A stretch of 34,543 nt of DNA from assembly GCA_007118135.1 (NCBI GenBank), contig SKSE01000056.1, positions 1-34,543 of the forward strand, given 5' to 3'. This DNA comes from Bacteroidales bacterium. Lineage in GTDB: Bacteria > Bacteroidota > Bacteroidia > Bacteroidales > UBA7960. Each line of letters opens with the position of its first letter. Within the stretch, counting starts at the first letter, position 1. The position numbers and the translations under genes were made by a program. Below the pieces are notes generated by a model. It was not told the DNA's origin. It saw nothing but the letters and a program-made list of their open reading frames with translations, and made no database searches. This document shows, in pieces, positions 1 to 33,631 of this stretch.

Positions 1-2463
1 GATTATTCAACCCGGGGGGTGGAATTTATTACCGGGGGTGTTGAAGCAATTGATCAGTGGGAATCTTTTCCTGTTCTTGGTTCTGAAAGTGAGCTGGCTG
101 CAGAAGAGCCATACTGGTGGACTCTCCCGGATGGTAAAAGCCTGATGGCTCTTTTCAGGGATAACCGCAGGAGCGGGTACCTGTACCGTTCATTTTCAAT
201 TGATAATGGTCGTAACTGGAGCCGACCCGTTCAAACAGATTTTCCTGATGCCCGTTCAAAGTTCAACGGTCTCCGGTTAAGTGACGGAAGGTATGTTCTG
301 GTTTCCAATCCTCATCCAAGAAAAAGAGATCCGCTTACAATATCCATTAGTGACGATGGAATGGTTTTCACCAAAATGGGTTACCTCGTTGGGGGACGTC
401 ATATTGATTATCCTCATGTAATTGAACATGATGGGTTTCTGTATATTGCCTTTGCAGGTTCTGCAAAGCAGATGATAGAGGTGCTTAAGATAAGGATTGC
501 AGAGTTGGATTCAGTATTTAGTAATTTTTCTTATCAGGCTGTTTCCCAGCCGGAAGTAAAAACAAATTCGGTTGGGATGGAACTGGTTAAAATTAACTCC
601 GGATCTTTTATTATGGGCTCAGAGGAAGGGGAATATGATGAAAAACCTGTAAGAAAGGTTAACATTTCCAATCCCTTTTATATGAGTTCTACGCCGGTAA
701 CAAATGTCCAGTATGAACAATTTGACCCGCATCACAGAATGCTGAGGGGAAAGCGGGGACTTTCGAATGAAGATAACGAAGCCGTTGTTTATGTTAGCTG
801 GTATGATGCGGTAGCGTTCACCGAATGGTTAAGCATAAAAGAAGGGAAACCTTACCGGCTTCCTACCGAAGCGGAATGGGAATATGCTTGCAGGGCAGGA
901 ACGGAAACCCTTTATAATACAGGCGACAGTCTGCCTGTTATCTATCACCTGAATCAAAGGAATGTATGGTACCCGAAAGAGGTTCCGTTAACCGTAGGAA
1001 AAACTCCCCCAAATCCATGGGGTTTGTATAATATGCATGGGCTGGTTGAAGAATGGTGCCTGGATTGGTATGGGCCTTATACAGGTGATGAGCTCATTGA
1101 TCCGTTTGCTTATCATGATAGTGATTTCAGGGTCACCAGGGGTGGCAGTCACAATACCGACCCTGTTTTTTTGAGAAGTGCCAACAGAATGGGGATGATA
1201 CCGGAGAATAAACATTTCCTTACCGGCTTCCGGGTAGTTCAGGCTGAAATGCCGGCCAGGCTGACAGTGGAAAGGGGAGATGTAAAAAAATGGGCTGAAC
1301 AGGTGATCCAGTCTCCGTCTGACTGGACCTCCCGCATTGATATGGATGAACCCTATTTCAGTGAACCGATATATTTTCAGAAAATTCCTTACGGTTCAGA
1401 TGGACCACTTTATTCGCAGCATAATCACTGCCCTGATATTACACCTCTTCCTAATGGAGACCTTTTTGCTACATGGTATACAACTGTTACCGAACAGGGA
1501 CGGGAACTGGCGGTAGCTGCAAGCCGGTTAAGGAGTGGAGCAGATGAGTGGGATGAACCGGACCTGTTTTACAAAGTACCCGACAGGAATATGCACGCCA
1601 CCTCAATATTGTGGGATCGTTCAGGAGACCGGATTTACCATTTCCAGGGCATGGCGGTCAGCTATGGCTGGGGAGATCTTGCTCTGTTTATGAGAACCAG
1701 TGAGGATAATGGGTTGACCTGGTCGAAACCTCACTGGATCAATCATGAGCATGGTTTGCGGAATATGCCCATTGCCGGTGCTTTTAAAACATCTGAAGGA
1801 GCTATCATTGTGCCCTGCGATGCCGTTACCGGAATGGAAGGAGGTTCCGCCATTCATATCAGCATCGATAATGGTATCACATGGAATGATCCGGGGGCAG
1901 GAACTCCGCGACCGGAATTTGATGAAGGAAAAACCGGTGGCACAATAGCAGGAATTCATGCAGGATTGGTTGAACTCAAAGACGGGTCATTGATGGCATT
2001 GGGCAGGGGTAATAACATTAATGGATATATGCCAATGAGCATATCTGAAGACATGGGTAGATCGTGGACCTACTCGGCCAGTCCTTTTCCCCCGATTGGC
2101 GGTGGTCAGAGACTGGTCTTGATGAGGCTTAAGGAAGGCCCGCTTTTTTTTGCTTCCTTCACAGGCCTTCATGATGATGAAAAGGGAATGGAATTTACGG
2201 ATAAAGAAGGGAATAAATACACAGGTTACGGATTATTTGTGGCCCTTTCTTATGATGAAGGAAAAACATGGCCTGTAAGAAAACTTGTAACACCAGGCGA
2301 AGGAGAGTTTGATGGAGGCGCGTGGACAGGAGAATTCGTAACAGACGATGCCCGGGCAGAACCCCGGGGTTACCTGGCTGCTACACAATCTCCTGATAAT
2401 ATTATTCATCTGATCTCCAGCAGGCTGCATTACAGATTTAATCTTGCCTGGATTGAAGAGTGA
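1..2463 (+). CDS. Sialidase-like / FGE-like / sialidase-like fusion protein, 5' end outside window
   Basis: The reading frame is open from base 1, so the true start lies upstream; the GTG at base 19 is only the first start-like codon. The visible protein has three parts. About 150 residues resemble the end of a sialidase-like beta-propeller with an Asp-box (SIDNGRNWS). An FGE-sulfatase/SUMF1-type domain follows, roughly bases 560-1240, with NSVGMELVKINSGSFIMGS, LPTEAEWEYACRAG and RGGS. A second sialidase-like propeller fills the rest, with Asp-boxes SEDNGLTWS, SIDNGITWN, SEDMGRSWT and SYDEGKTWP. Sialidase-fold proteins in such loci act outside the cytoplasm on glycans, but the substrate cannot be read here. 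The FGE-like part lacks the cysteine pair of true formylglycine-generating enzymes after RGGS (about base 1138), so it is more likely a binding or structural domain. A remnant of a DHDPS-family gene follows. I am sure of the domains, not of the activity. Confidence 0.85.
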   Translation, partial: DYSTRGVEFITGGVEAIDQWESFPVLGSESELAAEEPYWWTLPDGKSLMALFRDNRRSGYLYRSFSIDNGRNWSRPVQTDFPDARSKFNGLRLSDGRYVLVSNPHPRKRDPLTISISDDGMVFTKMGYLVGGRHIDYPHVIEHDGFLYIAFAGSAKQMIEVLKIRIAELDSVFSNFSYQAVSQPEVKTNSVGMELVKINSGSFIMGSEEGEYDEKPVRKVNISNPFYMSSTPVTNVQYEQFDPHHRMLRGKRGLSNEDNEAVVYVSWYDAVAFTEWLSIKEGKPYRLPTEAEWEYACRAGTETLYNTGDSLPVIYHLNQRNVWYPKEVPLTVGKTPPNPWGLYNMHGLVEEWCLDWYGPYTGDELIDPFAYHDSDFRVTRGGSHNTDPVFLRSANRMGMIPENKHFLTGFRVVQAEMPARLTVERGDVKKWAEQVIQSPSDWTSRIDMDEPYFSEPIYFQKIPYGSDGPLYSQHNHCPDITPLPNGDLFATWYTTVTEQGRELAVAASRLRSGADEWDEPDLFYKVPDRNMHATSILWDRSGDRIYHFQGMAVSYGWGDLALFMRTSEDNGLTWSKPHWINHEHGLRNMPIAGAFKTSEGAIIVPCDAVTGMEGGSAIHISIDNGITWNDPGAGTPRPEFDEGKTGGTIAGIHAGLVELKDGSLMALGRGNNINGYMPMSISEDMGRSWTYSASPFPPIGGGQRLVLMRLKEGPLFFASFTGLHDDEKGMEFTDKEGNKYTGYGLFVALSYDEGKTWPVRKLVTPGEGEFDGGAWTGEFVTDDARAEPRGYLAATQSPDNIIHLISSRLHYRFNLAWIEE

Positions 2464-21256: not shown

Positions 21257-23035
21257 ATGGGATCGATCAGATATCTATTGGTAGTTTTTGTTGTGTTGTT
21301 TGTTCTTCTGGTTTCTTATGGCAGCCTTAATGACAGTAAATCTCCACCCTTTTATCCCACAGACATCAAAGAGACTTCCGGTCAGCAGTTTTTGTTGTCT
21401 AATAAGGGAACAAAAGCAGTGGCATTGTACCCTGAAGGGTTTGAGAGTCCACTCCGGGTTTGGCATTTTGATGAAGCGCCAACGGGTCTGGGCACCAGAG
21501 GTGATTATGCCTATGTAACAACATTTGAGACGGTCGGGGAGGTACACATCCTTCATTTGCAATCAGGTGAAGTTGAAAAAACACTGACCACAGGCTCAGG
21601 TGCTAACACGCCATTGATTTCTCCTGATGGCAATGCGCTTTATGTGTTGAACCAGTTTCAGGGCACGGTCAGTAAAATTGACCTGAACAGCCGGGAGGTC
21701 GTAGCTACTGTCAAGGTGTTGCGTGAACCCCGGTCTGCAGTCATTGACAAAGATGGCAGGTATCTTTTCGTAGCAAATTTTTTGCCTGCACAGCGTGCTG
21801 ATCTTGACACAGTAGCTGCGATGGTTTCTGTAATTGATCTTGAAGGGTTTACAAAGGTCAGAGACATTGCCATGGCCAATGGAAGCAATTCTTTGCGTGG
21901 GATGGCTCTCAGTCCTGACGGGAAATATGTTTTTGTTACCCATAACCTGGCCCGGTTTGGTGTGCCTACCAATCAGCTAACACAGGGTTGGATGAATACC
22001 AGCGCCATGGGCATTATTGATGTCGGCACACTCGAAAAGATCGCCACCGTTTTGCTTGATGATCCCGAACGGGGCGCTGCAGGCATCTGGGATGTCAACT
22101 GCACCACTGAAAATATTGTAATTACCCATTCAGGAACCCATGAGATCAGCCTGATTGACTACAATGGTTTCGTGGAAAAGCTAAATACCTATCCCAATAA
22201 AAATCTTCTGAATTTCGATCTGAGTTTCATGCAGGGAATCCGTCAGCGCATTCCTCTTGTTGGCAATGGTCCCCGTAATTTTGTCATTTCTGGCAACATG
22301 GCATTCATCCCCACTTATTTTTCTGATACGCTTAATGTGGTAAGTCTGACCAACGGACAGATCACTTCCGTTGCGCTTAATCCTGGCAGGCTTGCATCGA
22401 ATATTGACATTGGAGAAAGGGTTTTCAATGACGCCAGCTTCTGTTTCCAGAACTGGCAGTCGTGCAATGGTTGCCATCCGGGAGATGCGCGAGCAGATGG
22501 TTTAAATTGGGACCTGATGAATGATGGGGTTGGCAACCCGAAGAACACAAAAAGTTTGCTCTACAGCCATGTAACCCCTCCTGCAATGATTTCTGGCATC
22601 CGCGCAAGCGCTGAAATGGCTGTCAGAGCGGGTTTCACCCATATACAGTTTGCAAAAATATCCGAAGACCTTGCCAAAGCTGTCGATGAATACCTGAAGT
22701 CACTTCAGCCAGTTCCCAGCCCATGGCTGGCAAATGGGAACCTATCTGAAAAAGCAGAGCGGGGCAGGGATGTTTTCAATAGACTCGGTTGTGGAGACTG
22801 TCATTCAGGCCCTTATTATACAGACCTGCAGATGTATAGGATTGGTGAAGATGTGGAGTTTGAAAACGGATGGGATACACCCACGCTGATTGAGGTTTGG
22901 CGAACTGCTCCATACCTCTTTGACGGCAGGGCTGCCACCATGGAGGATGTATTTGCCGTTCATAATCATGGGATTTACGAAAAACTGTCAGATAAAGAGT
23001 TGGATGAGTTGGTTGAATTTGTAAATTCCTTGTGA
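21257..23035 (+). CDS. YVTN beta-propeller fused to diheme cytochrome c peroxidase-like domain (HzsB/HzsC-like)
   Basis: A 592-residue protein with one hydrophobic N-terminal segment (RYLLVVFVVLFVLLVSY) acting as signal or anchor. Residues about 45-385 are a seven-bladed YVTN-type propeller (ISPDGNALYVLNQFQGTVSK, DKDGRYLFVANF, LSPDGKYVFVTHN). Residues about 385-592 are a MauG/cytochrome c peroxidase-like domain with two c-type heme sites, C403-NG-C406-H407 and C512-GD-C515-H516. DTPTLIEVWRTAPYLFDGRAATMEDVF is the usual C-terminal peroxidase signature. A propeller plus a diheme peroxidase-like unit is what anammox hydrazine synthase has as HzsB and HzsC, which are fused in Scalindua. With an HzsA-like gene two positions downstream, the resemblance is hard to ignore. 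It probably works in the periplasm. Without the neighbour it would be called a generic YVTN-cytochrome. The reaction is unknown. Confidence 0.85.
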   Translation: MGSIRYLLVVFVVLFVLLVSYGSLNDSKSPPFYPTDIKETSGQQFLLSNKGTKAVALYPEGFESPLRVWHFDEAPTGLGTRGDYAYVTTFETVGEVHILHLQSGEVEKTLTTGSGANTPLISPDGNALYVLNQFQGTVSKIDLNSREVVATVKVLREPRSAVIDKDGRYLFVANFLPAQRADLDTVAAMVSVIDLEGFTKVRDIAMANGSNSLRGMALSPDGKYVFVTHNLARFGVPTNQLTQGWMNTSAMGIIDVGTLEKIATVLLDDPERGAAGIWDVNCTTENIVITHSGTHEISLIDYNGFVEKLNTYPNKNLLNFDLSFMQGIRQRIPLVGNGPRNFVISGNMAFIPTYFSDTLNVVSLTNGQITSVALNPGRLASNIDIGERVFNDASFCFQNWQSCNGCHPGDARADGLNWDLMNDGVGNPKNTKSLLYSHVTPPAMISGIRASAEMAVRAGFTHIQFAKISEDLAKAVDEYLKSLQPVPSPWLANGNLSEKAERGRDVFNRLGCGDCHSGPYYTDLQMYRIGEDVEFENGWDTPTLIEVWRTAPYLFDGRAATMEDVFAVHNHGIYEKLSDKELDELVEFVNSL

Positions 23036-23102
23036 ACAGGGCTGCATTGGAAAAGGAATGGCTAATTTGCTAAACCCACTTTAAGAGATTTTGAGGAGAA
23101 AA

Positions 23103-23129
23103 ATGAATAATCAGGATAATTCCCGGTAG
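23103..23129 (+). other. Eight-codon open frame with a Shine-Dalgarno-like site before the RidA-like gene
   Basis: GAGGAGAAAA precedes an ATG that reads MNNQDNSR and stops, three bases before the ATG of the next gene in another frame. GGAG-type sites are unusual in this window. It could be a leader peptide, or the true N-terminus of the next protein displaced by a frameshift or sequencing error. Confidence 0.3.
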
Positions 23130-23131
23130 AT

Positions 23132-24289
23132 ATGTTGCAAACGAGATATTCAGTTATAAAAACATCAGGTGCCGGTTTCACCGGGCAACTGGAAGAATTA
23201 TTTGATGCTTTCAAACCCGGAAATAAGGTTGTAAGGCTGGTGCTCTTCGGAAACCCTTCAGGATGTGAGGAATATCGGGCAAATCTTGGTCAGATAAAAA
23301 ATGCTGTGCACCGGTATTTTGGGGATCAACCGCCGGTTTACAGTTATATTGCCCAGCCGCCATTAGATGGTAACAGGTTGACAATGGAGATTGTTGAGAT
23401 TGTTCCTGAGGTATCAATGCAATTTTTTTATGGCAGCAAGAATGGAACTCCATATATCACTGTAAAAACGGATTGCGTCAAATATCTGTTTGTTGGCGGG
23501 TTAAAGGCAGATTCGCCAGGTTTGGGACTAAGGGAACAGGCTGATGAGATTTTTGCCAGACTGGATCAGATACTGAATATAGAAGGGATGCCAATTTCAT
23601 CAATTGTCAGGCAATGGAATTACATCGAACAAATACTTGCGATTAAAAACGGAAGACAACATTATCAGGAGTTTAACGATTCAAGGTCGCTGTTTTATCA
23701 TCAAACAACTTTTGAGAATGGTTATCCGGCGGCAACCGGAGTAGGTGCCAGTTGTGCAGGCGTTGTTGTTGATCTCGACGCGTTGCATCCGCTGCGGCAT
23801 GATGTAAGGATTGTATCACTGAATAATAGCTTGCAGGTGCCGGCCCATGCCTACTCGCCCTCCGTCTTGCTGGGTGAAGATGACCGGAAAACGGGACAAA
23901 AATTCACCCCAAAGTTTGAAAGGGGTAAAGCCATTTTATATGGCAACAAAGGATTTATCTATATTTCTGGCACCGCAGCAATCAGGGGTGAGAAAAGCTT
24001 GAATGATGCCTCTGTGAAGGAACAAACCCGCATGACCCTTGAAAATATCCAATACCTGATATCAAATGAGAACCTGGCCAAAGAAGGAATAAATGATGTG
24101 GAGAGTGTCAGGCTCTGTTCGTTGCGGATTTATCTGAAGGAGAATCACTATTACGATCAGGCAAAAAAGATTGTTGAAGAGATTTATCACGGCTTGCCTG
24201 CGGTATACCTTAAAGGCGATGTTTGTCGCGATGAGCTTTTGGTTGAAATTGAGGGGGCCGCCACTTTCAACTTATTAACAAAATTATAA
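23132..24289 (+). CDS. RidA/YjgF-superfamily, chorismatase-like protein
   Basis: A 385-residue protein with no signal peptide, so presumably cytoplasmic, unlike its two heme-protein neighbours. The C-terminal half carries the YjgF/RidA pattern: GKAILYGNKGFIYISGTAAI, then VKEQTRMTLENIQYLI, and later VESVRLCSLRIYLK. The overall layout (N-terminal partner domain, then RQWNYIEQI and GYPAATGVGASC, then RidA) resembles the FkbO/XanB2 chorismatase family, which converts chorismate to hydroxybenzoate-type products. Whether the chorismate site is complete cannot be judged by eye. It lies 96 bases after the propeller-cytochrome gene and 37 before the HzsA-like gene, so the three probably form one operon. 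Making an aromatic compound or protecting against a reactive amine or imine are both possible roles. Confidence 0.7.
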   Translation: MLQTRYSVIKTSGAGFTGQLEELFDAFKPGNKVVRLVLFGNPSGCEEYRANLGQIKNAVHRYFGDQPPVYSYIAQPPLDGNRLTMEIVEIVPEVSMQFFYGSKNGTPYITVKTDCVKYLFVGGLKADSPGLGLREQADEIFARLDQILNIEGMPISSIVRQWNYIEQILAIKNGRQHYQEFNDSRSLFYHQTTFENGYPAATGVGASCAGVVVDLDALHPLRHDVRIVSLNNSLQVPAHAYSPSVLLGEDDRKTGQKFTPKFERGKAILYGNKGFIYISGTAAIRGEKSLNDASVKEQTRMTLENIQYLISNENLAKEGINDVESVRLCSLRIYLKENHYYDQAKKIVEEIYHGLPAVYLKGDVCRDELLVEIEGAATFNLLTKL

Positions 24290-24326
24290 TCATGTTTCTT
24301 TTCTCCATTCCATTCATCTTCTTAAA

Positions 24327-27300
24327 ATGTTCATAATGAAAAATAGTTTCGGCATTATACCTTTTTTACTGCTGCTCCTGGTTATGGTCATCATTTCAGG
24401 CAATGCCTGGAAAGAAACCGAAAAAAGTGAAATTCTTTTTGATCCATACCAGTATGAACCGGTTTCGGAAAATGCTTTTGACGACATCATTTTCCGGCTT
24501 GAATCATTTGATCCAACCATGTACAGGATGGCGCTGGATGATCTGCAGAATACCTATCCCACAAAATTTATTACAGAGGACAAGACACTCATTGCTTTGA
24601 ATAGAATGGATGAAGGCAGGGACGAACTGATCAGAGGAGTGCGCGACGGCGATAGAAGCGCCTATCGGGATGCGGTATTGCTGATGCGGCAGCTTGATCA
24701 GCAATTGCTTCATAACCCGCTGATTGATGGGAAAACCATGGTGGCCATCAAACGCCGGATTGGCGATCGCGCGCGCACTGAAATGGGTGGCGGTATCGGA
24801 CTGGCGCCGTCAAACTTCCAGAACAATTCTGAAATACATCATCCAGCAACGGGCTGGGACAATGAATTCATCACGATTTCAATGAAAGGTGCCAGCCGCA
24901 TCATTAGCTACCTGTATACCCCACCCAAAGGTATGATCATTGCCAATCCGGATGTGCATTACAGCGGCAAAAGAATGCTTTTTGCCTCAATTGGCAGCAA
25001 CAACAGGTGGCATATTTTTGAAATTGACCTTGTGGACAGGTCGGTCAGGCAGGTCACCCCCGAAGCTTACAAAGATTTTGATAGTTTTGAGCCAATATAT
25101 ACCCCCGGAGGTAAGATCATATTCTGCTCAACAGCCACTTTTCTCGGACTGCCCTGCACCGACGGGGGCAATAAAATGTCGGGCATCTTCCAGTATGATC
25201 CCGAAACAGGAACCACCCGGCAGCTGACTTTTGACCAGGACAGCAACTGGGATCCGGTTGTCATGAATGATGGCCGCATCCTTTATCAACGCTGGGAATA
25301 TGCCGACATGGCACATTCCAATTACCGCCTTTTGTTTACCATGAATCCGGATGGGACAGGCCAGCAGGCCTACTATGGCTCCAATTCCTACTTTCCCACG
25401 GCATTTTTCAATGCCCGGCCCATTCCGGGCCATAGCACGGCTGTTGTGGGTATTGCAAGTGGCCATCACGGCATATCGCGCAGCGGTCGCATGCTGGTGA
25501 TCGATCCCGCAATTGGGCGGAAAGAGGCTGATGGCGTTACTGCCGAAATACCTTATTATGGCAGGAAAGTTGAGCCTTTGGTGCGCGACAGGCTGGTTGA
25601 TGGGGTCTGGCCGCAGTTCCTGCAGCCATATCCGTTGAGTGATAAGTATTTTTTGGTGTCAATGAAGCCAACCCCCCGCTCTTTGTGGGGACTTTACCTG
25701 GTTGATGTTTTTGGGAACATGACGCTGATCATAGAAAGTGAAAACGAAGCCTTTGTTGAACCGGTTCTGGCTGATGCAGTGCCTGCCAAACCAATCATAC
25801 CTGAAAGGGTCAATCCCGACAGCAAAACAGCAACGATATTTTTGCAGAATGTTTATGAAGGTGATGGTTTAAAAGGGATCCCAGTGGGTGAGGTTAAGAA
25901 GCTTCGCGTGATCTCTTATGGATTCAGTCCGTGGGGACAGGGTGGACTATTGGGTACGATCGGCATGGATGGCCCGTGGGACATTAAGCGGGTGCTGGGT
26001 ACGGTAGATGTAGAGGCCGATGGATCGGCCATGTTCATGGTTCCTGCAAACACGCCAATTGCTGTGCAGCCCCTTGATTCGGAAGGAAAGGCACTGCAGT
26101 TGATGAGGTCATGGTTTACCGCCATGCCCGGTGAAACGCTTTCATGCATCGGATGCCATGAAGACAAAAACCGGGTGCCTCTTCCCGGTATCAGCCTTGC
26201 TGCACGAAAAAGACCCCAGGAGATCAAAGAGTGGTATGGAGAAGAGCGGGGATTCAGTTTTGCGCACGAGATTCAACCCATTCTTGACAGGGCCTGCGTT
26301 GCCTGTCATAACGGGGATCGACCTGAATTGATCTATTTGAAAGGTGACAAAAGAATTACTGATTGGAATTCTCAGATTTCCGGACGTGCAGATCAATATT
26401 ATGGTGGAGATTTCTCCTTGTCATATGGGAATTTGCATCGCTTTGTGCGTCGTCCGGGCATTGAAAGCGACATTGACATGCTTGTTCCCATGGATGTGCA
26501 TGCCGACCAGACGGAGTTGATGCAAATCTTGCAAAAAGGACATTATAATGTTCAATTATCAAGGGAGGAGCTGGAAAAAATTGCCTGCTGGATTGACCTG
26601 AATGCCCCGTTTCACGGCCGCAGATCTGATATAAGAACATTTTACCGTACTGAACAGGCCAGGGTTTTGAGGTCGAAATATGCCAGCATGTTTAACATCA
26701 CAGAACCTGATCTTGAAGTTTTGCCCCCACTTCCCACGTCAATTGTTCCTCAACTACCGGAACCCCTTTCTATTGACAAGGGAGTCGATACCATACCCGG
26801 ATGGCCGGTGGCCAGGGGCGACATTGAGAACCGGCAACTTGCCCTGGGTAAATACCAGGTGTCCTTGCCGTTGGCAGAAGGAATTTCGATCGATATGGTC
26901 AAGGTGCCGGCCGGCAATTTCATTATGGGGAGTACCGACCATCCGGATGAGATGCCACGAACGGAACAGCATGTTTCAGCTTTCTGGATCGGACGGTTCG
27001 AGGTAACCAACAAGATATATGCCCTGTTTGACCCCGGTCATGACTCAAGGGATGAGCACCGGCATGGTTATCAATTCGGCAGGAAAGGTTACCCGTTGAA
27101 CCATCCCGACCAACCGGTGGTTCGCGTTTCGTGGGATGAGGCCATGGCATTTTGCAGGTGGCTGAGTGATAAAACCGGCCGAAACTTTACCCTGCCTACC
27201 GAGGCGCAGTGGGAGTGGGCAGCGCGTGCCGGAACAGACACACCTTATTCTTTTGGCAATTTTGGAGATGACTTTTCGCTGTATGCAAATTTTGGAGATA

Positions 27301-27695
27301 TCACACTCAGAGAGTTTGCCGCATGCACGGCACATAAAAACTATGAAAGTGTGAGGATCATTGATAACCCGGGCCCATACGATGATTGGATCCCGCGAGA
27401 CACAAGCTTCAACGACGGTGGCTTCGTTTCAGAAATGGTGGGTCGCTACCGCCCGAATTTTTTTGACCTGCATGACATGCACGGAAATGTTTGGGAGTGG
27501 ACCCGGTCATCATACATGCCCTATCCCTACCATGATAACGATGGCCGCAATGCGGTGAACAACGACCTCAGCAAAGTTGCACGGGGCGGATCCTGGCGCG
27601 ACAGGCCGCATCGTGGCACCTCCAGCTACAGATTGCCTTACCGGCCTTACCAGAAGGTGTTTAATGTTGGTTTCAGGGTGGTTATCGAAGAGTAA
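24327..27695 (+). CDS. HzsA-like diheme protein (hydrazine synthase alpha-type) with C-terminal FGE/EgtB-like domain
   Basis: A 1122-residue exported protein (hydrophobic segment about residues 10-27; an in-frame ATG three codons later is the alternative start). Residues about 170-500 look like the six-bladed TolB-like propeller of HZS-alpha (ADGS-type turns, GGKIIFCSTATFLGLPC, YQRWEYADMAHSNYR, HHGISRSGRMLVIDP). The middle domain follows, with GTVDVEADGSAMFMVPANTP and the first heme site C607-IG-C610-H611. The next part, SFAHEIQPILDRACVACHN, holds the second heme site C657-VA-C660-H661. Residues about 850-1120 are a SUMF1/FGE-like domain (MVKVPAGNFIMGS, LPTEAQWEWAARAG, HGNVWEWT, RGGSW at 1086). 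In Kuenenia HzsA a tyrosine four residues after the first CxxCH histidine binds the heme iron; here that place is N615. Hydrazine synthesis is therefore unlikely. The FGE-like part lacks the catalytic cysteines. The reaction is unknown. Confidence 0.85.
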   Translation: MFIMKNSFGIIPFLLLLLVMVIISGNAWKETEKSEILFDPYQYEPVSENAFDDIIFRLESFDPTMYRMALDDLQNTYPTKFITEDKTLIALNRMDEGRDELIRGVRDGDRSAYRDAVLLMRQLDQQLLHNPLIDGKTMVAIKRRIGDRARTEMGGGIGLAPSNFQNNSEIHHPATGWDNEFITISMKGASRIISYLYTPPKGMIIANPDVHYSGKRMLFASIGSNNRWHIFEIDLVDRSVRQVTPEAYKDFDSFEPIYTPGGKIIFCSTATFLGLPCTDGGNKMSGIFQYDPETGTTRQLTFDQDSNWDPVVMNDGRILYQRWEYADMAHSNYRLLFTMNPDGTGQQAYYGSNSYFPTAFFNARPIPGHSTAVVGIASGHHGISRSGRMLVIDPAIGRKEADGVTAEIPYYGRKVEPLVRDRLVDGVWPQFLQPYPLSDKYFLVSMKPTPRSLWGLYLVDVFGNMTLIIESENEAFVEPVLADAVPAKPIIPERVNPDSKTATIFLQNVYEGDGLKGIPVGEVKKLRVISYGFSPWGQGGLLGTIGMDGPWDIKRVLGTVDVEADGSAMFMVPANTPIAVQPLDSEGKALQLMRSWFTAMPGETLSCIGCHEDKNRVPLPGISLAARKRPQEIKEWYGEERGFSFAHEIQPILDRACVACHNGDRPELIYLKGDKRITDWNSQISGRADQYYGGDFSLSYGNLHRFVRRPGIESDIDMLVPMDVHADQTELMQILQKGHYNVQLSREELEKIACWIDLNAPFHGRRSDIRTFYRTEQARVLRSKYASMFNITEPDLEVLPPLPTSIVPQLPEPLSIDKGVDTIPGWPVARGDIENRQLALGKYQVSLPLAEGISIDMVKVPAGNFIMGSTDHPDEMPRTEQHVSAFWIGRFEVTNKIYALFDPGHDSRDEHRHGYQFGRKGYPLNHPDQPVVRVSWDEAMAFCRWLSDKTGRNFTLPTEAQWEWAARAGTDTPYSFGNFGDDFSLYANFGDITLREFAACTAHKNYESVRIIDNPGPYDDWIPRDTSFNDGGFVSEMVGRYRPNFFDLHDMHGNVWEWTRSSYMPYPYHDNDGRNAVNNDLSKVARGGSWRDRPHRGTSSYRLPYRPYQKVFNVGFRVVIEE

Positions 27696-28191: not shown

Positions 28192-29268
28192 ATGAACAAA
28201 AAATTCAAACCTGTTTTTATCATTATGGTGGTAATTGCCATTGCAGGCATCATATTCTACCCCAAGATCAGGCCATTAATATCAAATGAACCTGAGGCGC
28301 CGGTTCCTTCCCGTGCAATGGGTCCCCGTACGCTCAATGTTGAAGCCATGCAACTTGAACCCCGTCGCCTGGTAGAATATATTAATATTCCCGGTACCCT
28401 TATTCCCGACGAGCAAGTAGATCTTTCCTTTGAGACATCAGGTAAGATTGTCGACATAAATTTTGACGAAGGAACACCCGTTCGCAAAGGACAGTTACTG
28501 GCCAAAATCAACGACCGGCATTTACAGGCACAGCTTCTGAAGCTTCAGGCACAGAAAAAACTTGCTGAAGAACGCGAGTTTCGTCAGCGCAGTTTGCTGT
28601 CGCGCGATGCCATCAGCCAGGAAAGCTACGACCAGGCTGTTACCGAACTGCAATCGCTTGAAGCTGACATTATGCTTCTTGAGGCAAGAATTGCAGAAAC
28701 CGAACTCAGAGCACCTTTTGAAGGTGTAATAGGTTTACGCCATGTAAGTGAAGGTAGTTACGTCAATCCTAACACCCAGATTGCCCGGTTGATAAAAAAT
28801 GACCCTTTGAAAATAGAATTTGCCATTCCTGAACGCTACGCCGGAGATATAAAAGTTGGTTTTCCATTGAGTTTTGTGCTGGATGGTAATCCTGATGCAC
28901 ATCTTGCAAGGGTTTATGCCGTTGATCCCAAGGTGGATGTGCGAACACGCAATATTACCGTAAGAGCCCGCTACAACAATCCCGGCGCAAGAATTAAACC
29001 TGGAAGATTTGTTTCCATTCAGTTGGAGATGGCTGAAATAGAAGATGCTTTGGCTATTCCCTCAGAGGCACTAATTCCTGAAATGGATGGCGACAGGGTT
29101 TTTGTTTATAGAAATGGCAAAGCCGAATCTGTTGAAGTTACAACTGGCTTGCGAACTGAAGACCAAATCCAAATTACCAGTGGACTGCAGACTGGCGATA
29201 CACTCATTACCACGGGTATTCTTCAACTCAGGCAGGGCATGCAGGTTATTATCGACAAATTTATTTAA
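28192..29268 (+). CDS. RND efflux periplasmic adaptor (membrane fusion protein)
   Basis: A 358-residue HlyD/AcrA-type adaptor that should link the inner-membrane RND pump to the outer-membrane channel. One N-terminal membrane segment (about residues 6-24, FKPVFIIMVVIAIAGIIF) anchors it. The barrel-sandwich halves are GKIVDINFDEGTPVRKGQLLAKI and ELRAPFEGVIGLRHVSEGSYV, flanking a coiled coil rich in Leu, Gln and Glu (residues about 115-170). The beta-barrel and membrane-proximal part follow (DVRTRNITVRARYNNPGARIKPGRFV). Twelve bases separate it from the permease, so they are one operon. Substrates cannot be inferred. Confidence 0.95.
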   Translation: MNKKFKPVFIIMVVIAIAGIIFYPKIRPLISNEPEAPVPSRAMGPRTLNVEAMQLEPRRLVEYINIPGTLIPDEQVDLSFETSGKIVDINFDEGTPVRKGQLLAKINDRHLQAQLLKLQAQKKLAEEREFRQRSLLSRDAISQESYDQAVTELQSLEADIMLLEARIAETELRAPFEGVIGLRHVSEGSYVNPNTQIARLIKNDPLKIEFAIPERYAGDIKVGFPLSFVLDGNPDAHLARVYAVDPKVDVRTRNITVRARYNNPGARIKPGRFVSIQLEMAEIEDALAIPSEALIPEMDGDRVFVYRNGKAESVEVTTGLRTEDQIQITSGLQTGDTLITTGILQLRQGMQVIIDKFI

Positions 29269-29280
29269 GCCAATATATTA

Positions 29281-32200
29281 ATGAGTTTATCATCTATAAG
29301 TATACAACGCCCGGTACTTGCAACAGTTTTTACTATTATTATCCTGTTGTTTGGCCTTATAGGAATGACTTTTTTGGGTGTGCGGGAATTTCCCAGCGTT
29401 GACCCACCCATTATTTCTGTAAGAACTTCCTATCCGGGCGCTAACTCCGATGTTATTGATGCACAAATTACCGAACCGCTGGAACAAGCCATCAATGCCG
29501 TACCCGGTATACGAAACATAACCAGTGTAAGCCGTCAGGGTAGTAGCAATATTACAGTAGAGTTTGAGCTAAGTGTAGATATGGAAACCGCGGCCAATGA
29601 TGTACGCGATAAAGTCGCCCAGGCCCAGCGTCGTTTGCCGCGCGATGTTGACCCCCCGATAGTTTCCAAGGCCGATGCCGATGCCAGTCCTATTATGTTT
29701 ATTAACATACAGAGCGACAGGCGCTCTCTAACAGAACTTTCGGAATTTGCCGAACTCACATTCCAGGAAAGGTTACAAACCATCGATGGCGTAAGCTCGG
29801 TGCCCATCTGGGGGCAAAGACGCTGGAGTATGCGCTTGTGGATGGATCCCGCAAAGCTTGCCGGTTATAATCTTACTCCGCTGGATGTGCGTAATGCCAT
29901 AATGCGCGAAAATGTGGAACTTCCCTCCGGCAGTATAGAAGGTACTACTACTGAACTTACCATACGCACACTGGGATTACTTACCACTCCCGATGAATTT
30001 GATAATCTCATCATACGCCAGGAAGGAGATCAGATTGTACGTTTTATGGATATAGGCCGTGCAGAACTGGGTTCTGAGAACCTGCGAAGCATATTGATGC
30101 GCGACCGTATTCCCATGTTAGGTGTAGCGATTATTCCGCAACCGGGTTCCAACCATATTGATATTGCCGATGAGGTTTACAACCGTCTGGAGCATATACA
30201 AAGAGACTTGCCTGATGATGTTTTTTTCCAGGTAGGTTTCGATAATACAAAATATATTCGCTCATCTATAGTGGAAGTGCGCAATACCATTTTTATAGCA
30301 TTCTTTCTTGTAGTTGTTATTATCTTCTTCTTTTTGCGCGACTGGCGAACCACACTTATCCCCATTCTTGTAATACCGGTTTCATTGGTTGGTTCCTTTT
30401 TTATCATGTATGTGGCAGGATTTACCATCAATGTTCTCACCCTGCTGGCTATTGTTCTTGCCATTGGCCTTGTGGTGGATGACGCCATTGTAATGATGGA
30501 GAATATTTATGTGAAGATTGAGAATGGAATGACTCCAAAACAGGCCGGGTTAAAAGGAGCACAGGAAATATTCTTTGCCATAATTGCCACTACTATTACT
30601 CTGGTGGCTGTTTTTATTCCCATTGTTTTCCTGGAGGGGATGACCGGAAGGCTATTCCGCGAGTTCAGTATTGTTATAGCAGGTGCTGTAGCTATTTCTT
30701 CTTTTGTGGCACTTACTTTCACACCCATGCTATCTACAAAGATTCTGAAGCAACGCACAGAACGTGGTGCTCTGTATAAAAAGACCGAAAGGTTCTTCAG
30801 GGCCTTGAATGATGCCTATAAAAACTCACTTGATCGATTTCTTGCTAAAAGGTGGATAACATTTTTTATTCTTTTAGGTGCCATCGGACTCATCGTTTTA
30901 CTTTACGCAAATATTCCTGCAGAAATGGCTCCTTTGGAAGACCGTTCGCAGATTACAATCAATGCGCAAACCCCCGAAGGTGCAACTTTTGAGTTTACCA
31001 GGGATTATATTTTCGATATTGCTGAGATGGTAATGGAAGAAGTACCTGAGATAGAAGGTGTGATATATATGGTTTTTGGTAGCTGGGCAAATGTCAGGGT
31101 AATTCTCGTCCCACCCTCAGAAAGACAAAGGTCGCAGCAGGAAATTGCCGATTACCTTTCAGCCAGAGTAAGTCAGATGACACGTGCCCGTGCCTTTGTA
31201 ATGCAGCAATCTACCTTTGGCGGACGTCGGTCCGGAATGCCCGTACAATATGTATTGCAGGCGCAGAATATCGAACGGCTAAGGGAAGTGCTACCCGGGT
31301 TTATGGAAAAAGTGGATGACAGTGATATTCTGCAGATGGCCAATGTAAACCTTCGTTTTACAAAACCAGAAATACAGGTATCCATAAACCGAGATAAAGC
31401 TAACCTGATGGGTGTATCTACCCAGAATATCGGGCAAACACTTCAGCTTGCATTGTCAGGCCAGCGCTTTGGTTATTTCTTCATGCATGGCAAACAGTAT
31501 CAGATTCTTGGTGAACTGGCCCGTGAAAACCGAAATAAACCTCTCGATTTGAAGTCGCTCTATGTGAGGAATAATTTTGGCGATATGATTCAGCTCGATA
31601 ACCTGGTTACATTGCAGGAGCAAACAGCTCCACCGCAGTTGTATCGCTACAACCGGTTTGTTTCTGCAACGGTTTCTTCCGGACTTGCCCAGGGAAATAC
31701 CATTGGTGATGGAATTGAAGAGATGAACCGCATTGCTGATGATGTACTGGATGAAACCTTCCGTACTGCCCTGGCGGGTGATTCAAGAGACTTTCAGGAA
31801 AGCGCATCAAGTCTGATGTTTGCATTCCTGCTGGCTTTGATACTTATTTTCCTTGTGCTTTCGGCTCAGTTTGAAAGTTTCAGAGATCCGCTTATCGTTA
31901 TGATGACAGTGCCGCTGGCATTAACCGGAGCTTTATTCTTTATGTGGTATTTTGATATTACTATGAATATCTTCAGCCAGATAGGTGTCATCATGCTTAT
32001 CGGTCTGGTATCCAAGAATGGTATTCTCATGGTGGAATTTGCCAATCAGCGGAAGCAGCAGGGTATGGAAAAGCTTGATGCCATAAAATTTGCTGCAGCT
32101 GCCCGGTTCCGGCCGATTCTGATGACCAGCCTCTCAACCATTCTCGGAGTATTACCTTTGACCCTTGGCCTTGGCGAAGGTGCTCAGAGCCGTATTGCCA

Positions 32201-32319
32201 TGGGTGTGGCTGTTATCGGTGGATTAATCATTGCAACTTTTCTTACACTTTATGTGGTTCCGGCCATTTATTCCTATGTTTCAAGTTCTAAAAAGAATAT
32301 AAGTGATGAGCCGATTTAA
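29281..32319 (+). CDS. RND-family efflux permease (HAE1/AcrB-like)
   Basis: A 1012-residue inner-membrane proton-driven pump. The layout is the usual duplicated RND fold: a membrane segment near residues 10-30, a large periplasmic loop, a cluster of five to six segments (about 335-490), a second loop, and a final cluster (about 835-1000). The proton relay is intact: D400 and D401 in VDDAIVMMEN match the AcrB Asp pair 407/408, and K912 in LVSKNGILMVEF matches Lys940. The start ATG at 29281 opens with MSLSSISIQRPVLATVFTII, the standard N-terminus. It overlaps the channel gene at its end. It probably exports drugs, bile salts or other amphipathic compounds. Confidence 0.97.
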   Translation: MSLSSISIQRPVLATVFTIIILLFGLIGMTFLGVREFPSVDPPIISVRTSYPGANSDVIDAQITEPLEQAINAVPGIRNITSVSRQGSSNITVEFELSVDMETAANDVRDKVAQAQRRLPRDVDPPIVSKADADASPIMFINIQSDRRSLTELSEFAELTFQERLQTIDGVSSVPIWGQRRWSMRLWMDPAKLAGYNLTPLDVRNAIMRENVELPSGSIEGTTTELTIRTLGLLTTPDEFDNLIIRQEGDQIVRFMDIGRAELGSENLRSILMRDRIPMLGVAIIPQPGSNHIDIADEVYNRLEHIQRDLPDDVFFQVGFDNTKYIRSSIVEVRNTIFIAFFLVVVIIFFFLRDWRTTLIPILVIPVSLVGSFFIMYVAGFTINVLTLLAIVLAIGLVVDDAIVMMENIYVKIENGMTPKQAGLKGAQEIFFAIIATTITLVAVFIPIVFLEGMTGRLFREFSIVIAGAVAISSFVALTFTPMLSTKILKQRTERGALYKKTERFFRALNDAYKNSLDRFLAKRWITFFILLGAIGLIVLLYANIPAEMAPLEDRSQITINAQTPEGATFEFTRDYIFDIAEMVMEEVPEIEGVIYMVFGSWANVRVILVPPSERQRSQQEIADYLSARVSQMTRARAFVMQQSTFGGRRSGMPVQYVLQAQNIERLREVLPGFMEKVDDSDILQMANVNLRFTKPEIQVSINRDKANLMGVSTQNIGQTLQLALSGQRFGYFFMHGKQYQILGELARENRNKPLDLKSLYVRNNFGDMIQLDNLVTLQEQTAPPQLYRYNRFVSATVSSGLAQGNTIGDGIEEMNRIADDVLDETFRTALAGDSRDFQESASSLMFAFLLALILIFLVLSAQFESFRDPLIVMMTVPLALTGALFFMWYFDITMNIFSQIGVIMLIGLVSKNGILMVEFANQRKQQGMEKLDAIKFAAAARFRPILMTSLSTILGVLPLTLGLGEGAQSRIAMGVAVIGGLIIATFLTLYVVPAIYSYVSSSKKNISDEPI

Positions 32320-33631
32320 GCTGATTTTTACTGGTTTATTATTGATATTTACTTCTTATGCCGGAGTGCTGGCTCAACATGCATTGTCATTGGAAGAGTT
32401 TATTGATATTGCATTGGAGCAGAATTACTCTCTGCGTATTGTGAAAAACCAGGAGAGAGTTGCAGGTAACAATTTCACCCGGGGAAATGCAGGCATGCTT
32501 CCCAGTCTTGATCTGAGATCACAATTTTCCGGAAATATCAACAATACAAATCAGAATCTTTTGGATGGCACTGAATTCAGCCAACGTGGAATTCACAACA
32601 CCACATTCAATAATGCCTTGCAGGGAAGCTGGATGCTGTTCGACGGTTTCAGGGCGCAAATACGCTATGCTCAACTGGAAGAACTCAAAAACCTGAGTGA
32701 GCTCAACACTCGAATTCAGATTGAAAACCTTATTGCACGGCTTGCTTCAGAATATTATTTTTACATACAGCAAACCCAGCAATTTTCCAATTTACAGTAT
32801 GCTGTAGATATATCCAAAGAAAGGGTTAGAATAGAGCAGGAGCATTTTTTACTGGGATCGGGTTCTAAAGTAACACTTTTGCAGGCTGAAGTAACTTTGA
32901 ATGCTGACAGTTCGCGTCTTGAGCGACAATATGAAGTGCTGAGTGCATCACGTATCAGGCTTGCCGAGTTGCTTGCCCTACCTGATCTTTCTGAATCTGT
33001 GGTGCCGGCAGATACTTCTATAGTTGTAAATCCGGGCCTGAGATATAACGAACTTGAGAGTGATGTGATAAGCCAGAATGCTTCAATACTGGCAGCTTTA
33101 CAAAACCGTAAAATCAGCGAGTATGATTTGGATTTGATAAGGTCGCGCACCTATCCTTACATGAATTTGAGTTCGGGTTACGGTTATACTTTCAGTACAT
33201 CCCAAAGTGCTGCGTGGGAAAATCAACATACATGGGGCATGAATTACGGTATAACGGTTGGAATAAATCTTTACGACGGACGCAACCTTCAACGGCAGAA
33301 AAGTAATGCCCGCATAGAACTTGAGAGCCGCGACCTTGCAGTTGAACGGGCACAACAAGAATCTATTGCTGATTTGCTGACTATCTATAATACTTACTCC
33401 AATAATCTTCGTCTGCTCGACCTTGAAACCCAAAACCTTGAAGCAGCGCGTGAAAATGTGGAGATAGCTTTCGACAGGTATCGCCTGGGAGCACTCTCCG
33501 GGTTTGAGCTTCGTGAAGTACAAAGAAACCTGCTGGAAGCCGAAGAACGCCTGCTTTCCATTCAGTACCAGGCCAAAATGGCCGAAATAAGTCTGCTGCA
33601 GATTTCAGGAAGAATACTGGAAAGTTTTTAA
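32306..33631 (+). CDS. TolC-like outer-membrane efflux channel
   Basis: The protein is 441 residues from the ATG at 32306. A GTG at 32303 is in frame but adds only one residue, and the ATG is preferred. The signal peptide is about residues 1-24 (IFTGLLLIFTSYAGVLAQ). Two OEP repeats follow (about 30-220 and 240-440), with LSLEEFIDIALEQNYSLRIVKN, then WMLFDGFRAQIRYAQLEE, and in the second half LNLYDGRNLQRQKSNARIELE. These are typical of the outer-membrane factor of RND pumps. It overlaps the end of the permease gene by 14 bases, indicating translational coupling, and completes the tripartite pump. Confidence 0.95.
   Translation: MSRFKLIFTGLLLIFTSYAGVLAQHALSLEEFIDIALEQNYSLRIVKNQERVAGNNFTRGNAGMLPSLDLRSQFSGNINNTNQNLLDGTEFSQRGIHNTTFNNALQGSWMLFDGFRAQIRYAQLEELKNLSELNTRIQIENLIARLASEYYFYIQQTQQFSNLQYAVDISKERVRIEQEHFLLGSGSKVTLLQAEVTLNADSSRLERQYEVLSASRIRLAELLALPDLSESVVPADTSIVVNPGLRYNELESDVISQNASILAALQNRKISEYDLDLIRSRTYPYMNLSSGYGYTFSTSQSAAWENQHTWGMNYGITVGINLYDGRNLQRQKSNARIELESRDLAVERAQQESIADLLTIYNTYSNNLRLLDLETQNLEAARENVEIAFDRYRLGALSGFELREVQRNLLEAEERLLSIQYQAKMAEISLLQISGRILESF

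Follow-up and report, generated by a model that had tools for sequence, protein, structure and literature searches.

Three consecutive genes in a Bacteroidales genome encode two homologues of hydrazine synthase (HZS) subunits and, between them, a chorismatase homologue. They lie on a contig of 34,543 nucleotides (GenBank assembly GCA_007118135.1, contig SKSE01000056.1, forward strand), which was analyzed at its full length and is called the window hereafter. Profile searches and alignments show that the outer two proteins, each with two CxxCH heme motifs, are homologous to HzsBC and HzsA and that their genes travel together. We slightly favor a reading in which these genes form the core of a recurrent module, whose exported tetraheme HZS-like complex would act on an organic compound and would not make hydrazine; we infer that this substrate is carbohydrate- or chorismate-derived. 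The three open reading frames were found where a first-pass annotation of the window, made from the DNA letters alone, had placed them, and they contain the following features.

21257..23035, forward strand: fused HzsB/HzsC-like protein (BC), 592 amino acids, with a hydrophobic N-terminal segment (by eye), an HzsB-like propeller and a diheme MauG/CCP-like domain
21965..21991, forward strand: propeller loop P237..Q240..G244-W245 in BC, from the alignment of HZS-like BC proteins
22463..22477, forward strand: CxxCH heme motif 1 (C403-H407) of BC, counterpart of heme γ-I
22790..22804, forward strand: CxxCH heme motif 2 (C512-H516) of BC, counterpart of heme γ-II
23132..24289, forward strand: FkbO/Hyg5-type chorismatase homologue, 385 amino acids, without visible export signal (by eye); C365 and E372 correspond to C327 and E334 of Hyg5
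24327..27695, forward strand: HzsA-like (α-like) protein, 1122 amino acids, with a hydrophobic N-terminal segment (by eye), a propeller-like part, HZS_alpha, a cytochrome-like part and an FGE-like C-terminal domain
25887..26162, forward strand: HZS_alpha domain (Pfam), residues 521-612 of the α-like protein
26145..26159, forward strand: CxxCH (C607-H611) of the α-like protein, counterpart of heme α-I; the residue at H+4 is Asn615
26295..26309, forward strand: CxxCH (C657-H661) of the α-like protein, counterpart of heme α-II
26892..27683, forward strand: FGE-sulfatase-like domain PF03781 of the α-like protein (Pfam, E 1.4e-41)

Homology of the outer proteins to HZS subunits

We compared BC with profiles and structures of HZS. 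It matches the NCBIfam hydrazine_BC fusion model with an E value of 2.8e-30, but its score of 105 bits is below the cut-off of 1250, and the single-subunit models give 72.6 bits for beta (cut-off 560) and 71.8 bits for gamma (cut-off 625). With phmmer, the Kuenenia HzsB (5c2v_B) and HzsC (5c2v_C) chains are found at E values of 4.1e-19 and 1.7e-16, respectively. An AlphaFold model of BC built from 5 sequences has a mean pLDDT of 67, with most of the propeller above 80 and most of the diheme part below 50. Its first match in a Foldseek search against the PDB is 5c2v_B (E 5e-21, TM-score 0.85 over the target and 0.52 over the query), followed by many unrelated propellers. Four residues of a P..Q...GW loop in the propeller (P237, Q240, G244 and W245) are invariant in all 30 aligned HZS-like BC proteins.

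The α-like protein matches Pfam HZS_alpha with an E value of 4.1e-33 and 114 bits, above the cut-off of 26.6, and reaches 50 bits against a cut-off of 800 in the NCBIfam hydrazine_alpha model. A profile made from 22 α-like proteins retrieves HzsA (5c2v_A) at 3.7e-29. The alignment covers both heme regions and is strongest over the middle domain and around the second heme, but weak over the propeller. The α-like proteins have in common Cys277 (22/22) and a His-His pair (21/22 for each His). A gene of 811-837 codons adjoining the α gene encodes a fusion of ResB and a cytochrome c assembly protein in the three loci scanned (L060, L106 and L107), which supports the presence of real c-type hemes. 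The first-pass annotation had described the outer genes as a fused HzsB+HzsC-like protein and an HzsA-like protein. Both descriptions are borne out by these profile matches and by the retrieval of HzsB, HzsC and HzsA. Two of the checks it had proposed, an HZS-alpha profile search and a structure prediction, gave the HZS_alpha match above cut-off and, for the 21257 protein, support for the HzsB fold.

The C-terminal FGE-sulfatase-like domain of the α-like protein had not been mentioned in that annotation. To judge by eye, the RGGSW..GFR stretch near the C terminus, which we take to be the position of the FGE catalytic Cys pair, contains no Cys. FGE activity of this domain was set aside on this visual reading. 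At the left edge of the window (1-2463), a further protein combines an FGE-sulfatase-like domain and BNR repeats.

The genes of the module occur together

We next asked how often these genes are neighbors; all genome counts include the window genome. An HZS_alpha gene is present once in the window genome, in 5 of 59 relatives, in none of the other 11 members of its genus, in 17 genomes (13 of them above cut-off) of a phylum sample of 395 and in none of 14 control genomes. Planctomycetota and anammox relatives lie outside the set of fetched relatives. The counts are low and scattered, and the distribution is therefore patchy. In an order sample of 393 genomes, a BC profile at E 1e-20 finds matches in 27 genomes, with 33 rows corresponding to 32 places, since one gene is present as two pieces. 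The neighborhoods of all 32 places were read, with genes labeled by blastp and with neighborhoods ending at contig ends. An α-like gene is near BC in 25 of the 32. In six of the seven others (L067, L102, L103, L104, L105 and L123) the contig ends on the side where the α gene is expected; in the seventh, L111, 13.7 kb downstream of BC contain no α-like gene.

Genes found next to BC in the 32 places include those for a chorismatase homologue (10 places), a cupin (10) and DhaK (8). BC and a full-length chorismatase homologue, the latter present in 35 genomes, are both found in 17 of the 393 and lie within 5 kb of each other in 10 (Fisher p 9.5e-14). The corresponding figures for BC and the cupin (14 genomes) are 13 and 10 (Fisher p 3.9e-16). 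The genomes are related, so these p values are not exact. The gene pairing of the module is beyond chance, and the co-occurrence elsewhere for which the first-pass annotation had called is thus seen both for the α-like gene and for the chorismatase homologue. Four further loci (L028-L031) were reached with a chorismatase query; they have BC adjacent to the chorismatase homologue in 4/4 and an α gene in 3/4, and, being biased toward the chorismatase homologue, they are left out of all counts over 32. In a quick tree of BC proteins, from which the fragment L068 was left out, the window protein clusters with those of L101 and L028 with a support of 99. Adjacency of a chorismatase homologue requires at least 6 changes on this tree, and has therefore been gained or lost several times.

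Two gene arrangements can be distinguished. Type I loci (L028, L030, L060, L063 and L101-L108) draw on a set of genes for IclR, BC, the chorismatase homologue, the cupin, DhaK, DhaL, an aldolase, a propeller protein, the α-like protein and the cytochrome c assembly protein, in varying order and in many cases incompletely. Type II loci (L066 and L119-L125) contain an FG-GAP/UnbV gene, a short α gene, a three-heme BC gene and a propeller protein gene, in this order. Their BC proteins carry one extra heme motif in 8/8 and are only 25-26% identical to the window protein. In addition, α/BC pairs are found with few or no other labeled genes (L100, L109, L110 and L112-L118), and L111 combines BC with a chorismatase homologue. 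In L063 (14532-18593), the α-like gene is present as two adjacent open reading frames of 710 and 643 amino acids, which could mean that the gene is split or that the sequence contains an error.

HZS-like genes outside anammox bacteria have been reported before. According to the parts of the literature compared here, HZS-like α/β-γ pairs were described in 2023 from metagenome-assembled genomes of Phycisphaerae, with hzsABC-like genes also in KSB1 and with the proposal of a possible wider family of HZS-like enzymes (PMC10732223). Four HZS-like clades I-IV followed in 2025, and Bacteroidota were named among the groups with homologues of the fused subunit; sections of the same paper cite the view that hydrazine synthase, for want of relatives, arose de novo (PMC12758564). 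The statement in the first-pass annotation that anammox HZS is the only member with this set of parts is thus out of date. As in these published genes, α and fused β-γ homologues are co-located in the window, and the fusion itself is also known from Scalindua (passages in PMC10732223 and PMC12758564). Type II loci fit the account of clade III in sections of PMC12758564, with an FG-GAP gene upstream of α, an extra heme motif in BC and two downstream binding-protein genes, the latter from a scan of L066 only. By the descriptions in those sections, the branch of the window, which may or may not correspond to clade IV, would differ from the published clades in its two α heme motifs, in having Ile rather than Trp at the γ-I pocket and in the FGE fusion. 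The chorismatase, isomerase, kinase and aldolase neighbors are not named in the parts of PMC12758564 on homologues. Neither the isomerase-kinase-aldolase operon nor the FGE fusion appears in the sections of that paper that were compared, and no search was aimed at either.

Residues of HZS chemistry are not conserved

We then compared residues assigned roles in HZS. Sections of PMC12758564 and PMC12607021 describe α-Tyr591 as the proximal ligand of heme α-I and γ-Cys165 as the third covalent bond to heme γ-I, and sections of PMC12758564 place γ-His144 in the γ-I pocket, where MauG/CCP and clades I-III have Trp. The His of the α-I CxxCH motif is kept in 22/22 α-like proteins. The Tyr591 place is occupied by Asn615 in the window and, over the 22 proteins, by Asn in 18, Tyr in 1 and other residues in 3. 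The γ-Cys165 place corresponds to I463 (offset by hand), in a column with 24 Ile, 5 Ser and 1 Thr among 30 BC proteins. The γ-His144 place corresponds to I445, with 21 Ile, 3 Val, 4 Trp, 1 Thr, 1 Ser and no His. The Trp is confined to 4 type II proteins of the 30; it agrees with the Trp reported for clades I-III and thereby checks the alignment register at this place. In HZS, α-Cys303 is a zinc ligand that Scalindua lacks, and heme α-II is bis-His coordinated with His772 as distal ligand (parts of PMC12758564 and PMC12607021). α-Cys303 would map near N353 of the window protein, as placed by hand where the alignment is weak, and His739, invariant in 22/22, is one residue off the aligned place of His772.

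A true hydrazine synthase would explain the clear HzsA and HzsBC homology and the gene pairing, and the window resembles anammox HZS (Kuenenia 5C2V) in its α and β-γ homologues with two CxxCH motifs each and in the proximity of their genes. It differs from anammox HZS in the missing active-site residues, in the added FGE-like domain and in the chorismatase homologue between the genes. We rejected a hydrazine-making role, since the Tyr591, Cys165 and His144 places are not conserved and the scores fall well short of the curated cut-offs for the NCBIfam HZS models matched. The residues largely refute this reading, which we regard as very improbable. The HAO-type domain PF13447 was not found in the window genome either, a weak test since the 14 control genomes likewise gave none. 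The homologues in PMC12758564 are, in the sections compared, likewise judged not to be true hydrazine synthases. Because the residues of HZS chemistry are not conserved, the window system is a relative and probably not a hydrazine synthase; to judge from these residues and from the chorismatase-like gene between its parts, it is probably a different redox enzyme rather than one of nitrogen chemistry. A nitrogen substrate of another kind is nevertheless conceivable for the HZS-like pair. The first-pass annotation had suggested an undescribed periplasmic redox enzyme. Its interpretation is partly borne out, in the HZS homology, the fused BC, the identity of the middle gene and the co-occurrence elsewhere; a hydrazine-type role is not supported.

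The γ-I pocket also bears on a MauG/CCP-like system, in which BC would oxidize a protein partner, for example the α/FGE protein, with peroxide and without a small-molecule substrate. BC contains a CCP_MauG domain (PF03150, 34.7 bits, above the cut-off of 25.6) with two CxxCH hemes, and has weak matches to MbnH-family and MauG models. The Trp that sections of PMC12758564 report for MauG/CCP is, however, Ile445 in the window, and the cytoplasmic enzymes of the operon would be left unexplained. We thus consider such a system unlikely.

The chorismatase homologue and the accessory enzymes

The middle protein matches PF21168 in its N-terminal part (E 1.1e-10) and the RidA-fold family PF01042 in its C-terminal part (E 1.3e-9), both above the Pfam cut-offs, and TIGR04444 with an E value of 1.4e-30, but its 106.7 bits do not reach the cut-off of 325. 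We selected 55 chorismatase homologues from the fetched loci by blastp score: the position of Hyg5 E334 is Glu in 55/55, and that of C327 is Cys in 54/55. Glu-334 is a catalytic residue of Hyg5 (parts of PMC7170507). These comparisons show the middle gene to encode a homologue of the FkbO/Hyg5 chorismatases in which the Cys and the catalytic Glu are both kept, in line with its initial RidA/chorismatase-like label. Both domains and the Glu and Cys positions are common to FkbO, Hyg5, XanB2 and the window protein, whereas the latter lies below the curated family cut-off and is encoded between genes for c-type heme proteins. In the open-licence literature we found nothing on a link of chorismatases to HZS-like genes.

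The conserved Glu and Cys are what one would expect if a working chorismatase made 3-hydroxybenzoate or a related compound from chorismate, and if the exported heme complex oxidized or reduced this aromatic product or used it as a redox mediator. A RidA-fold protein is likewise encoded in 5/8 type II loci, with the same C and E positions in 5/5, and in L066 genes for two binding proteins and for DAHP synthase, the first enzyme of the shikimate pathway, come next. DAHP synthase scores above its cut-off in both type II loci scanned (L066 and L120), a pointer to aromatic rather than sugar chemistry, and aromatic chemistry is for this reason the main rival of an organic substrate in carbohydrate loci. 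Against it stand the low TIGR04444 score, the type I isomerase, dihydroxyacetone kinase and aldolase, which it leaves unexplained, and the window neighbors scanned, which include no known aromatic-metabolism gene. We therefore regard aromatic chemistry as possible but clearly less probable than the organic-substrate reading favored above.

The accessory enzymes of type I loci may point to sugars. Pfam gave no meaningful match for any of 11 cupin sequences, but the cupin profile retrieves D-lyxose isomerases (7nzo, a D-lyxose/D-mannose isomerase, at 8.5e-20; 2y0o at 5e-16); by eye, some cupin N termini are lipoprotein-like and others are not. The aldolases of L028 and L105 score 457.9 and 459.2 bits, over the LsrF cut-off of 297, and match ADH synthase more weakly. 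DhaK and DhaL are above Pfam cut-offs and below the NCBIfam ones.

Chorismatase homologues of several kinds are also found near c-type heme genes elsewhere (L061:4061-11191, L180:2148-8087, L183:4482-9326 and L157:5276-8880), among the neighborhoods fetched for part of the chorismatase-type matches not adjoining BC (32, and two earlier ones). In L061 and L183, the homologues are more distant ones and the heme genes in their vicinity encode di-haem DHOR peroxidases. A ResB/CcsA assembly gene adjoins the homologue in L157 and L180, with an HZS_alpha protein on the opposite side in L180. This proximity may reflect a wider link. Stand-alone chorismatase homologues are encoded next to a protein of ~500-600 amino acids, often also next to one of ~610-640 amino acids (L172:8183-12682, L174:420-4984, L164, L165 and L167). 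In L172, the sole locus of this group scanned, the two neighbors are a PD40 propeller protein and DUF6057.

A possible role of the putative complex

In the organic-substrate reading, BC and the α-like protein, both of which would be exported to judge from their hydrophobic N termini, would form one tetraheme complex of HZS-like build. In the periplasm, an organic compound would be oxidized or reduced at one heme site, α-I or γ-I, while the remaining hemes would pass electrons. The cytoplasmic chorismatase-type enzyme would make or consume the partner compound by protonation of an enol-ether methylene. In the fuller, catabolic-looking operons, the resulting sugar may be isomerized, phosphorylated and cleaved to dihydroxyacetone phosphate, whereas the operon of the window version, in a fucosidase/sulfatase locus, does not contain the genes for these later steps.

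Several observations weigh against this reading, in addition to the DAHP synthase genes. The predicted model of the α-like protein is of low confidence (mean pLDDT 41), and its likeness to HzsA is sequence-based. Among the 17 genomes with both BC and the chorismatase homologue, the two lie apart in 7. Chorismatase-type matches of any kind occur in 70 genomes, 50 of which are without BC, and the homologue is absent from the fetched neighborhoods of the otherwise full operons L063 and L106. A Dak1 match is absent from the window genome, whose assembly is 88.7% complete, and the isomerase-kinase-aldolase sugar route therefore cannot be a fixed part of the module. Finally, the correlation of α and BC distances (r 0.67, 19 loci, 0/5000 permutations) is confounded by shared genome ancestry.

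A much bolder proposal, which we rate as quite improbable, is that HZS-fold complexes are a general periplasmic tool against carbon-oxygen groups, and that the sugar substrate of this branch carries a carboxyethyl (lactyl-type) ether, which is taken off. Here, the heme complex would desaturate the ether to an enolpyruvyl ether, and the chorismatase-type enzyme would protonate its methylene, freeing pyruvate and the sugar. Isomerase, kinase and aldolase would then complete sugar breakdown; the substrate merely fits the gene set. If this were true, anammox hydrazine synthase would have branched off late from an enzyme of sugar catabolism. For the chemistry of HZS relatives in general, the links by gene order to a chorismatase-type enzyme and, in fuller operons, to a sugar isomerase, kinase and aldolase provide concrete leads that can be tested.

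Genomic setting of the window

Domain scans of the window locus identify a GH95 protein, a DUF5703/GH95-like protein, a GH29 fucosidase, two sulfatases and BNR proteins. The module is flanked by GH95-type genes and by fucosidase and sulfatase genes, the latter two noted already in the first-pass annotation. Other carbohydrate loci are L029 (GH95, GH2, GH43, GH39, GH97 and DUF5703) and L100 (two fucosidases and GH95). An L-fucose isomerase is encoded elsewhere in the window genome, outside the locus. In L065 (5086-13858), L-fucose isomerase and FGGY kinase genes are oriented convergently to three others, which encode an HZS_alpha-like, a RidA-fold and a GH2 protein. About 500 bases past the module, the window contains an RND efflux set at 28192-33631, with HlyD-type, AcrB-type and outer membrane factor genes.

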